A stretch of 64,000 nucleotides of DNA, taken from assembly GCA_036490475.1 (NCBI GenBank), contig DASXDT010000005.1, positions 682,001 to 746,000 of the forward strand. Reading direction: 5' to 3'. The DNA comes from Candidatus Tumulicola sp. Its GTDB lineage: Bacteria > Vulcanimicrobiota > Vulcanimicrobiia > Vulcanimicrobiales > Vulcanimicrobiaceae. The position numbers and the translations under genes were made by a program. The notes beneath the pieces were generated by a model. That model made no database searches. It was not told where the DNA came from and worked only from the letters and a program-made list of their open reading frames with translations. How positions within the stretch are numbered: position 1 is the first letter of the stretch; each line of letters starts with the position of its first letter. Below are positions 20,328-23,622 of the stretch, in pieces.

Positions 20328-20402
20328 GCCGTGAGGTTCGCTCAGGAATTACTCGGGCATATGTGAAACCACAAAGGAGGCTGCAGGGGTCCGGGTCACT
20401 GT

Positions 20403-21074
20403 ATGAGTGCACTCGCCGCGCCGCTGCTGCAGGGAGTTTTCGTGCCAACAGCGGTTCCGACCGGGACCATGGCGGCCGCCAGGCTGCCGTCCGCGAGCGT
20501 GCCCACTATCGAGACGTTCGAACGGGTCGTCGACGACTACCAGCGCCGTCTCTACGGGTTCGCGCTTCGCATGACCGGCAACCGAGAGGATGCCGAAGAG
20601 ATCGTGCAAGATGCCTTCGTGCGCGCCTATCGCGCCCTCGGCAAGATGTCGCTCGAGCAACGCTCCGAGCTGCGGCTTCAGCCGTGGCTGTACACGATCA
20701 CCCTCAACGTCACGCGGAATCGCCTGCGCAGCAAGCGGCCGTCGAACGTCGCGCTCGACGCGCTGGCCGACCCGGATGCGCTTCTGCGGGAGTCCAACGA
20801 GGGACCGCCCCAGCCTGAAACCATCGTGGAGCGCAACGCCGAGGTCGCGCTGGTCGAACGCGCGCTCATGCAATTGCCGATGCACCTTCGCGCCGCAGCG
20901 ACGCTGCGCTTCATCGAAGGCCGCAGCCATCCGGAGATCGCCGAGATCCTGCACCAGCCGATCGGCACGGTTAAATCGCACGTCCATCGAGCGGTACGTA
21001 TTCTTCGCCGCATCCTCGGACCGCAAATCGGGAGATTGACCCCCCAAGGAGCACCGTTACATGCGCTGTCGTGA
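20403..21074 (+). CDS. ECF-family RNA polymerase sigma factor
   Basis: A 223-residue extracytoplasmic-function-type sigma factor. Region sigma2 spans about residues 44-110 (YQRRLYGFALRMTGNREDA, EEIVQDAFVRAYRAL) and sigma4 about 150-205 (LPMHLRAAATLRFIEGRSHPEI, then an HTH ending GTVKSHVHRAVRIL). ATG 20403 is used; its AAGGAGG (20374-20380) is too far away, and GTG 20442, with AGGGAG 5 bases upstream, is a credible alternative giving 210 residues. The 3' end overlaps by 14 bases the gene for a zinc-finger anti-sigma/alkyltransferase fusion, so the pair is translationally coupled, as sigma/anti-sigma pairs usually are. Target promoters are unknown. Confidence 0.93.
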   Translation: MSALAAPLLQGVFVPTAVPTGTMAAARLPSASVPTIETFERVVDDYQRRLYGFALRMTGNREDAEEIVQDAFVRAYRALGKMSLEQRSELRLQPWLYTITLNVTRNRLRSKRPSNVALDALADPDALLRESNEGPPQPETIVERNAEVALVERALMQLPMHLRAAATLRFIEGRSHPEIAEILHQPIGTVKSHVHRAVRILRRILGPQIGRLTPQGAPLHALS

Positions 21075-21792
21075 CGTCGAAGCTATGTGGGACGAAATCC
21101 ACGGCGACTGTATAAAGTCACTGCGGGAGACCGTCGCCGAGCACGTGCGCGGATGTATGCCCTGCCAGCTGCTGTTCGAACAGTACGAAGGCGTCGCGTA
21201 CCGGCTATCGACGCTGCCGCAGCCCCAGCCGTCGTGCGATCTCACCAAGCGCGTGGTCGAGCACATCGCGGCACTCAAATTCAAGACGCGCGAACCACTG
21301 CTGCTATGCGCCGTCGACACACCGATCGGACGCGTCCACGTCGGATTCAAACAACGCCGGATCGCCTACGTCGGCATCGACACGGGCGAAACGCCCGATG
21401 AGGTGCGCGATCGGGTGGAGCGTCGCTTACGCCGTCCGGTCGCGATGGGTCAAGTTCCCACCTGGCTGCTCGAAACGCTCGACCACTTTTTCCACACCTG
21501 GCGCATCGAGGACGCGATGATCGATATCAGCGATCTCACGCCGTTCGAGCAAGCGGCGCTGCGCGCCACCGCGCAGATTCCGCCGGGTGAAGTCCGCTCG
21601 TATTCGTGGGTGGCCTCACAGATCGGCCGCCCTCGAGCGGCGCGCGCGGTCGGCCGCGTGATGGCGCGCAATCCGCTTCCGTTGCTTTTTCCATGTCATC
21701 GCGTCGTCGACTCGTCGGGCGCCTTGCACAATTATTATTACGGCTTGGACATGAAGGCGCGTTTGCTCAAGATGGAAGGCTACCCCGGTTAA
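21061..21792 (+). CDS. Zinc-finger anti-sigma domain fused to O6-alkylguanine-DNA alkyltransferase
   Basis: A 243-residue fusion. Residues 1-~45 form a ZAS/zf-HC2-type anti-sigma zinc finger: Cys3 and H28-x3-C32-x2-C35 (EHVRGCMPC), followed by an amphipathic helix. Residues ~83-243 are a complete Ogt/MGMT-type methyltransferase: N-terminal strand TPIGRVHVGF, then PFEQAALRA, Tyr181, arginine finger RAVG (Arg195), Asn204 and the acceptor cysteine Cys212 in PCHRV. The Gly of the usual YxGG(L) loop (human Gly160) is Tyr227, which may narrow the pocket. The gene overlaps the ECF sigma gene. Inference: alkyl transfer to Cys212 could change anti-sigma binding and free the sigma factor. A plain repair enzyme with a vestigial finger is the alternative. 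Confidence 0.92.
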   Translation: MRCRDVEAMWDEIHGDCIKSLRETVAEHVRGCMPCQLLFEQYEGVAYRLSTLPQPQPSCDLTKRVVEHIAALKFKTREPLLLCAVDTPIGRVHVGFKQRRIAYVGIDTGETPDEVRDRVERRLRRPVAMGQVPTWLLETLDHFFHTWRIEDAMIDISDLTPFEQAALRATAQIPPGEVRSYSWVASQIGRPRAARAVGRVMARNPLPLLFPCHRVVDSSGALHNYYYGLDMKARLLKMEGYPG

Positions 21793-21849: not shown

Positions 21850-23622
21850 GTGTTATTTCTGAACGACCCACGTACCGCCGCCATCCCCGACGTTCACGGC
21901 CACGCCAAAGGCGAACATCGACCGTTCGCAGAGGAACGCCCGATCGCGTATTCCGCGCGGATGCTGTTCCTTTGGTTCTTCCACGCGTGTCGCCGCGGAA
22001 TGCCGCGATTCTTGATGGCCGCCGACCACGTCAATTACCTGACGTTCGAAGATCCCGGCGCCGTCAATACGGTCCGCCGCGCGCTCAAACTGGCGGAGGC
22101 CGGCGATCTACACGGTGCGGCTGAAGCCGCCGGCGTCGACCCCGGGCACGCGTCGGTCGTCTCCGAAGCGTTGCGGCGAGGCATGCGCTTCTCGCTCGGC
22201 GCGGAGGTCGACAACGATCCGCGCGCCAGACCGGATGCCCAAAACATCATCGACGCCATGCGCCCCGACGGAATCATTCGCTGCGTCAGTTTTTTGACGA
22301 TCGAACATCCCGAAAAGGGCTCGGATTTTAGCTGGTCCTTCGACGATGAGGAATTTGCATCGCTGCACGAGTCGTTCGGAACCGAACGCTTGTGGGAGCA
22401 GTACGTCGCCAAGCTGCTGGACGATCTTGAAAAGTTGCCGTCGCACGTCGCCGGCAACTTCTACATGCCGGCCCGCTTGGGCGGCTGGCCGGCACCCGAA
22501 CGCCTCGAGGAATATGAAGACCGCCTGTTAGCGGTCTGTCACGCCCGCAAACTGGCCGTCGAAATCAACACGCGCTTCCTCTACCGCGAAACGTCGGACG
22601 AGCAAAAGAAAGCATTTCTCGACGCCAATGCGCGACTGGCACGCAAGGCTCAAGGGCTGGGAGTTGGCATCGCAATCGGTTCCGACGCGCATAGCCCCAA
22701 AGACCAAGGCAATCATTTCGATATCGTGCTGCGCATGCTCGACGACGCGGAGATTAACGAGTTGGTCTTCCCGGTCGGCGGCCGGCTCGCTCGCGTCGCA
22801 TTACGCGCCACGCAGGAGCATCTCGAGGCGCACGATCGTTCCCGCGAAAAGAACGTGCCGGGCAGCAGCATCAGCGGATTCAGCCGCGCCGAACTCGGCC
22901 TCCCGGAACATATCGCAGTCCCCGGTAAAGGCCGAGCGAAAAAACGCGCCGGTGGTCCGGCGCGGCCGACCAAACGTGCGGCAGCCTCCGGAAAATCCTC
23001 GTCCAAGAGCACGTCCAAGCGCAGCGCCGACTCGAGCGAATCGTCGACGCAAGCAAAGGCTGCGCTCACCGAGCTCGGTGCCGATGCGACCGCGGAAACG
23101 CCAACGGCCAAGCCCGTGAAACCGGCGTCCAAGAACAAGGCCGCATCCAAAACGTCCGAAGCAAAAACGCCGGCAGTTAAAGCCGCTCCACCTGCGAAGG
23201 TCGCCGCCGCAAAGGCGACGCCGGTGCGCAAGGCCGCCGAGAAACCGAAAGCTCCCGAAAAAACCAAAGCGGTCGAGAAGCCGAAAGCCGCCGAGAAGCC
23301 CGTTGTCAAAGCCAAGGCGGAGAAAGCCAAACCGGTGAAGGCGGCCGTCGCAAAGACCGCTCCGGCCAAGCGCGCCGCAACGGCCAAAGCGCCTGCGCGC
23401 AAGAAGACGCCGGCGCCTGCAAAGAAAGCTGTAAAGACACCGGCGCGCGCGCCGGTGAAGAAAGCGGCTGCAAAGAAGCCGGCGCCCAAGCCGGCCGCCA
23501 AAGTCCCGGCTCGGCCTGCCAAGACCGCGGCAAAAGCCGCGAAGAAGACGACCGTTAAGAAATCGAGCAAATCCGCGGCGGCCCCGAGCGCGAAAAAGCG
23601 GCCGGCGCCTAAGCGCCGCTAG
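21850..23622 (+). CDS. PHP-domain phosphoesterase with histone-H1-like Lys/Ala/Pro tail
   Basis: 590 residues. The N-terminal ~345 residues form a PHP metallophosphoesterase with all usual metal motifs: DVHGHAKGEH (His16, His18), LMAADH, SLGAEVDN, a Glu/Asn strand (LAVEINTRF) and GSDAHSP. From about residue 360 to the end it is a basic low-complexity tail of Lys, Ala and Pro with PAKK, AEKP and KAAE-type repeats, like histone H1 or AlgP-type DNA-compacting tails. The tail suggests binding to DNA or RNA, which would put the phosphoesterase on nucleic acid. GTG start; it lies 57 bases after the alkyltransferase fusion on the same strand. Substrate unknown; PHP domains include DNA-polymerase-associated and nucleotide phosphatases. 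Confidence 0.85.
   Translation: MLFLNDPRTAAIPDVHGHAKGEHRPFAEERPIAYSARMLFLWFFHACRRGMPRFLMAADHVNYLTFEDPGAVNTVRRALKLAEAGDLHGAAEAAGVDPGHASVVSEALRRGMRFSLGAEVDNDPRARPDAQNIIDAMRPDGIIRCVSFLTIEHPEKGSDFSWSFDDEEFASLHESFGTERLWEQYVAKLLDDLEKLPSHVAGNFYMPARLGGWPAPERLEEYEDRLLAVCHARKLAVEINTRFLYRETSDEQKKAFLDANARLARKAQGLGVGIAIGSDAHSPKDQGNHFDIVLRMLDDAEINELVFPVGGRLARVALRATQEHLEAHDRSREKNVPGSSISGFSRAELGLPEHIAVPGKGRAKKRAGGPARPTKRAAASGKSSSKSTSKRSADSSESSTQAKAALTELGADATAETPTAKPVKPASKNKAASKTSEAKTPAVKAAPPAKVAAAKATPVRKAAEKPKAPEKTKAVEKPKAAEKPVVKAKAEKAKPVKAAVAKTAPAKRAATAKAPARKKTPAPAKKAVKTPARAPVKKAAAKKPAPKPAAKVPARPAKTAAKAAKKTTVKKSSKSAAAPSAKKRPAPKRR

Follow-up and report, generated by a model that had tools for sequence, protein, structure and literature searches.

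The window, a 64,000-nucleotide stretch of DNA from Candidatus Tumulicola sp., encodes an ECF sigma factor together with a protein in which an anti-sigma domain is fused to an O6-alkylguanine-DNA alkyltransferase (MGMT). We propose, at a probability of about 0.55, that this operon constitutes a self-contained alkylation-damage switch, with the fusion protein serving as sensor, inhibitor and repair enzyme in one. The proposal draws on sequence analysis, which documents the architecture and its conservation, an intact active site, the overlap of the two genes and a predicted autoregulatory promoter.

Domain architecture of the sigma factor and fusion genes

The first gene of the operon (20403..21074, forward strand, as are all features described below) encodes a protein of 223 aa, with significant hits to the Pfam models Sigma70_r2 (1.3e-15) and Sigma70_r4_2 (1.8e-12) and to TIGR02937, the sigma70-ECF model (1.4e-26). 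Region 2 maps to residues 43-112 and region 4 to residues 151-199, and the presence of these two regions and no others marks the product as an ECF sigma factor. The second gene (21061..21792) encodes the fusion protein of 243 aa and shares 14 nt (21061..21074) with the sigma gene. The first-pass annotation of this DNA had described an ECF sigma gene overlapping a ZAS-Ogt/MGMT fusion gene by 14 bases, and this description is exact, down to the residues that it singled out (C3, H28, C32, C35, Y181, R195, N204 and C212 within PCHRV). An artefact, a pseudogene or a chance overlap could be ruled out because all full-length members of the family have an uninterrupted reading frame.

The N-terminal part of the fusion (residues 1-72; 21061..21276) is predicted to be a ZAS-type anti-sigma domain (ASD). 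This assignment follows from a profile of the N-terminal domain in 31 relatives, which recovered RsiW, an anti-sigma factor of solved structure (5wuq; 6.2e-5 over positions 12-72), with a weak match to 3hug_B of M. tuberculosis (0.025), and from matches to zf-HC2 in 16 of the 31 relatives (best 2.9e-5). The finger of the window protein itself lies below the reach of Pfam, which gave no zf-HC2 match and reported the MGMT domain alone, so that the anti-sigma domain is easily missed; the RsrA model likewise matched this protein only weakly (E=0.0054). The zinc ligands C3, H28, C32 and C35 are nevertheless invariant in all 69 aligned members of the fusion family, as are W10, D11 and H68. An additional CxxC motif (YCLSCLP), with both C48 and C51 present, is found in 53 of the 69 members, and the window copy has R48 (21202-21204) and T51 (21211-21213) in place of these cysteines. 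Homology and the logic of the operon suggest that this domain binds the product of the overlapping sigma gene. Like the characterized ZAS/ASD factors RsrA, ChrR, RsiW and 3hug_B, the fusion has an N-terminal helical zinc domain with a His-x3-Cys-x2-Cys motif and is encoded directly after its own ECF sigma gene. However, the sensory half, which in those factors is a membrane segment, a cupin or a set of redox thiols, is here an active-looking DNA alkyltransferase.

The alkyltransferase half comprises two domains. The N-terminal, ribonuclease-like MGMT domain (residues about 81-158; 21301..21534) was detected by Methyltransf_1N in 6 of 31 fusion members (best 5e-4) and by phmmer, which aligned human AGT/SNAP-tag from fusion residue 85 onwards. 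It is followed by the active-site/DNA-binding domain (residues 159-240; 21535..21780), recognized by PF01035 (DNA_binding_1; 7.7e-29, residues 161-240) and TIGR00589 (5.1e-26). The acceptor Cys212 (codon 21694..21696) is invariant in 69 of 69 aligned members, together with Y181, N204, H213, R214, K232 and E239, and R195 is kept in 68 of them. Thus, the fusion shares with Ogt/MGMT (AGT) proteins both the PCHRV acceptor and the Tyr/Arg/Asn/Lys/Glu pocket residues, and with these residues intact it is likely to be active in repair. It differs from them in its N-terminal anti-sigma domain and in a conserved LHxYxYG loop, which places an aromatic residue where human AGT has Gly160. The C-domain of Ada likewise has an aromatic residue at this position, and its presence could perhaps limit the substrates to small alkyl groups. 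The fusion is distinct from Ada proper, which is defined by an N-Ada zinc domain (PF02805) and an AraC-type HTH: Pfam found only DNA_binding_1 in it, and the sole PF02805 match in the window's genome belongs to another gene, that of Ada, located on contig C6. The same contig encodes a divergent Ogt-like protein (G000:C6:132628-132822) with PAHR in place of PCHR, i.e. an alkyltransferase-like (ATL) protein.

Phyletic spread and a sister system

The window's order is made up of little-studied soil bacteria in Vulcanimicrobiota (Eremiobacterota). A survey of 149 genomes of the phylum, 103 of which belong to this order (families f1 and f2, 39 genera), recovered the full-length fusion from 93 of the 103 and fragments from 5 more; every genome of the order with a completeness of at least 90% has the full-length version. 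None of the 46 phylum genomes outside the order possesses the fusion, the matches there beginning at residue 59 or later. Within Vulcanimicrobiota, the fusion thus belongs to the core gene set of a single order. A scan of genome contigs for the ZAS fusion gave three matches, all close relatives, and a tblastn search of plasmids with the fusion as query yielded no record reaching 80% coverage; the relatives that carry a name are Candidatus Eremiobacterota (Vulcanimicrobiota) MAGs. The sigma gene lies directly upstream of the fusion gene in all 68 loci with readable upstream DNA. Of these junctions, 56 have a 14-nt overlap and 5 an 11-nt overlap, and in the remaining 7 the genes are separated by a gap of 0-8 nt. 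Lack of conservation of the fusion and the overlap in relatives had been named at the outset as grounds for giving up the reading; both are conserved across an order. Within the fusion family the mean pairwise identity is 60% in the ASD, 28% in the linker, 46% in the N-terminal MGMT domain and 77% in the C-terminal one.

Several genomes of the order encode a second ECF sigma factor (43 and 45% identical in two scored cases), followed by a gene for an MGMT protein that has a C-terminal Ada zinc domain (MGMT-Ada_Zn) and no ZAS ligands. This sister pair also occurs in Actinomycetota, with an overlap between its two genes of 11 nt in Rubrobacter radiotolerans and of 4 nt in Nonomuraea gerenzanensis and on two Streptomyces plasmids. 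The upstream regions of these actinomycetotal pairs show GAAAC/GCAAC together with GTGTT just 5' of the start codon. The sister operons resemble the fusion operon in having a sigma gene that overlaps or directly precedes the MGMT gene, in their promoter type and in the affinity of their MGMT domains, and differ from it in the domain attached to the latter. In a tree of MGMT domains, a single clade (98/86) unites the fusion with the sister system and also includes one stand-alone Ogt of the class, with the window genome's own Ogt and Ada falling outside it. The tree of the sigma factors has many long branches and is unreliable, and we draw from it no claim of sigma co-descent. One MGMT lineage therefore appears to be the lasting partner of ECF sigma factors, while the domain attached to it varies between ZAS and Ada_Zn. 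As the two systems join in one MGMT clade, the alkyltransferase would be the constant part and the zinc finger the variable one, and this provides the strongest argument for favouring DNA alkylation over redox change as the common signal.

An alignment of the sister proteins, from which one row in the wrong frame (L113) was left out, revealed that the two Streptomyces members have lost the Tyr and Arg positions of the MGMT domain and have kept PCHR and the four Ada-type cysteines. Given this pattern, the role of sensor may have passed to the Ada domain in these proteins. On both Streptomyces plasmids a separate Ogt gene directly follows the sister ECF operon (L179 1776-3778; L180 1515-3531), and the operons adjoin SARP regulators and metF, in L179 also metH. 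These loci look like a methylation-linked gene cluster carrying its own alkylation defence.

The neighborhood of ECF sigma and MGMT genes has been noticed before. ECF122, a group of Casas-Pastor et al. 2021, is listed in a 2022 review among the ECFs that lack a cognate anti-sigma factor; its conserved neighbors are 6-O-methylguanine DNA methyltransferases, and its regulatory mechanism is given as uncharacterized (PMC8999054). ECF122 thus resembles the present operon in the adjacency of ECF sigma and MGMT genes; however, its description there mentions no anti-sigma/MGMT fusion, whereas the protein reported here has its anti-sigma domain fused (PMC8999054). Compared by description, ECF122 suits the MGMT-Ada_Zn sister system better than it does the fusion, and it is prior art for the ECF-MGMT neighborhood and not, as described there, for the fusion (PMC8999054). 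A search of open-licence papers recovered no description of an anti-sigma/MGMT fusion, an absence which is not in itself proof. The initial reading, which knew of no described fusion, needs correcting in that the neighborhood was already on record (PMC8999054).

Promoter and possible targets of the sigma factor

A predicted ECF-type promoter (20363..20391) precedes the operon, with a -35 element GTGAAACC (20363-20370) and a -10 element GGTC (20388-20391); this GAAAC-N18-GGTC arrangement ends 11 nt before the ATG of the sigma gene. Of 66 loci, 39 have the pattern G[AC]AAC-N18-KGTY upstream of the sigma gene, compared with a mean of 0.2 and a maximum of 2 in shuffled sequences, and in 37 of these 39 it lies 9-12 nt ahead of the assigned sigma start. 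Some of the remaining loci were missed solely because their start codon had been assigned at too distal a position or their spacing is off by one base. The position of the motif corresponds to the layout of an ECF promoter and predicts a nearly leaderless transcript, and its presence before the sigma start suggests autoregulation of the operon.

Autoregulation is also the main signal of a wider search. The strict motif gave 55 matches in 99 family genomes, of which 27, as counted from the table of matches, are this operon; the other 28 barely exceed the 15 found in a reversed control. Similarly, TGAAAC-N18-GGTY gave 10 matches in the window's genome versus 6 in the control, and was well placed at the operon only. 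In this genome, the start codons of two further genes, the separate ogt and ada, also carry a relaxed form of the motif. Across the family, 60 ogt/ada-type loci gave 6 matches versus 0.4-1.0 expected, and after removal of the two first seen 4 of 58 loci had the motif, with about 0.7-1 expected, so it is rarely kept in relatives. These counts are suggestive, and only suggestive, of ogt and ada being under the same promoter type. The repair regulon envisaged by the first-pass annotation is accordingly clearest at the operon itself, the best predicted target, with a wider regulon merely hinted at by ogt and ada of the window's genome. The strict motif was also found 12 nt before a pirin gene (L149) and 30 nt before a thioredoxin gene (L150), in one genome each; these could represent either other ECF targets or chance matches.

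Candidate mechanism, alternatives and gene context

The architectural and contextual observations can be accommodated in the following scheme. The zinc-binding anti-sigma domain would hold the co-translated ECF sigma factor away from RNA polymerase, while the MGMT domain would repair O6-alkylguanine (or O4-alkylthymine) by transferring the alkyl group irreversibly onto Cys212. Alkylated MGMT is destabilised, and alkylation of Cys212, or an ensuing conformational change and turnover, could loosen the anti-sigma grip; it is this modification that we infer to be the trigger of release. From the GAAAC-N18-GGTC promoter, the freed sigma factor would then transcribe the operon that encodes it, raising the levels of both sigma and the repair enzyme/anti-sigma factor. 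Once the lesions are cleared, unmodified fusion protein would build up, recapture the sigma factor and switch it off.

Such a switch is reminiscent of E. coli Ada, in which a suicide alkyl acceptor is likewise linked to the expression of the gene that encodes it and with which the fusion has the MGMT domain in common. However, Ada acts as an AraC-type DNA-binding activator once its N-terminal zinc domain has been methylated, and the fusion, which has neither the N-Ada nor the AraC part, would produce its output by release of a sigma factor. Moreover, the transcription switch of Ada uses the Cys of the N-terminal zinc domain and not the MGMT-type Cys. The comparison with Ada drawn in the initial reading therefore stands as an analogy and supplies no precedent for a Cys212 trigger.

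Several lines of evidence favor the alkylation switch. The anti-sigma ligands are invariant (69/69) and the N-terminal profile finds RsiW and 3hug_B; the catalytic residues are kept across MGMT halves that average 46-77% identity; and the fusion, near-universal in the order, is always accompanied by the sigma gene. To these can be added the ECF-type promoter adjoining the sigma start, with the operon as the main target of the strict motif, the existence of the ECF and MGMT-Ada_Zn sister system with the same promoter type and MGMT clade, and the links to further repair genes, namely ogt directly following in Streptomyces and the motif at ogt and ada of the window's genome. Counting against it are the poor conservation of the ASD-MGMT linker and an AlphaFold model of the fusion (four sequences) whose confidence (pLDDT 49) makes it usable for helix order only and is too low to judge domain coupling. 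The small excess of strict promoter matches outside the operon (28 versus 15), the rarity with which the ogt/ada motif is kept in relatives (4/58) and the extra ASD cysteines, which could sense redox instead, weigh in the same direction. On balance the earlier interpretation is borne out in its architecture and in its anti-sigma/alkyltransferase reading, and the sister system makes alkylation sensing likelier than could be known from the window.

The extra cysteines raise the possibility that the zinc finger itself is the sensor, through thiol oxidation as in RsrA, with the MGMT domain a passenger that, for instance, provides a repair output stoichiometric with sigma. The weak RsrA match of the window fusion, the occurrence of both cysteines in most members (53/69) and the motif before the pirin and thioredoxin genes in one genome each would agree with this. 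Yet the window copy itself has R48 and T51 at these positions, and the sister system, devoid of ZAS ligands, keeps the MGMT domain and gains an Ada zinc domain. Furthermore, among 39 genera a passenger should have been lost now and then, and the near-complete genomes show no such loss, which leaves redox sensing an unlikely explanation. Alternatively, sigma might be released by DNA engagement. In this version sigma binding would be outcompeted when the MGMT domain engages DNA or a flipped lesion, and the transfer to Cys212 would be for repair only. MGMT domains do bind DNA and flip bases, and their C-terminal half is the most conserved part of the fusion; the Streptomyces sister proteins, which stay beside a sigma gene despite their altered Tyr and Arg, further indicate that binding without full catalysis may suffice. 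However, DNA binding alone would require neither Cys212 nor the other catalytic residues, all of which the fusion family keeps, and as MGMT also binds undamaged DNA it would furnish a poor signal, making this version, too, quite unlikely. It could also be that there is no signalling at all, and that a translationally coupled ECF/anti-sigma pair with a housekeeping MGMT provides constitutive negative feedback. The lack of a strong regulon outside the operon fits such an arrangement, which the strictly conserved pairing, the promoter and the sister systems with their independent Ada-type sensor domains render very unlikely.

If the alkylation switch is real, it would unite repair, sensing and transcription control in one irreversible protein, each repair event being one unit of signal, and would add to Ada a second way of achieving the adaptive response. 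It would also amount to a one-use, countable DNA-alkylation switch that could be converted into a reporter. The chances appear evenly balanced that it belongs to a broader, Ada-independent class of alkylation responses, in which MGMT-type acceptors serve as anti-sigma sensors whose alkylation frees an ECF sigma factor, with ZAS-MGMT and MGMT-Ada_Zn branches in Vulcanimicrobiota and Actinomycetota. The same mechanism would explain the MGMT neighbors of the ECF122 type, which are listed among ECFs under unknown, non-canonical regulation (PMC8999054).

Downstream of the fusion gene, the window encodes a PHP-type phosphoesterase-like protein (21850..23622), which matched histidinol-phosphatase/PHP models below the cut-off (7.6e-12) and has a very long tail that is rich in Lys, Ala and Pro and resembles histone H1. 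A PHP-type gene lies near the fusion on the same strand in 59 of 60 loci checked, and judging from synteny alone its product may be related to the sigma/fusion system. A pyroglutamyl peptidase gene (PF01470), absent from the window, is situated between the fusion and PHP genes in 34 of the 60 loci (e.g. L005 1569-2279).
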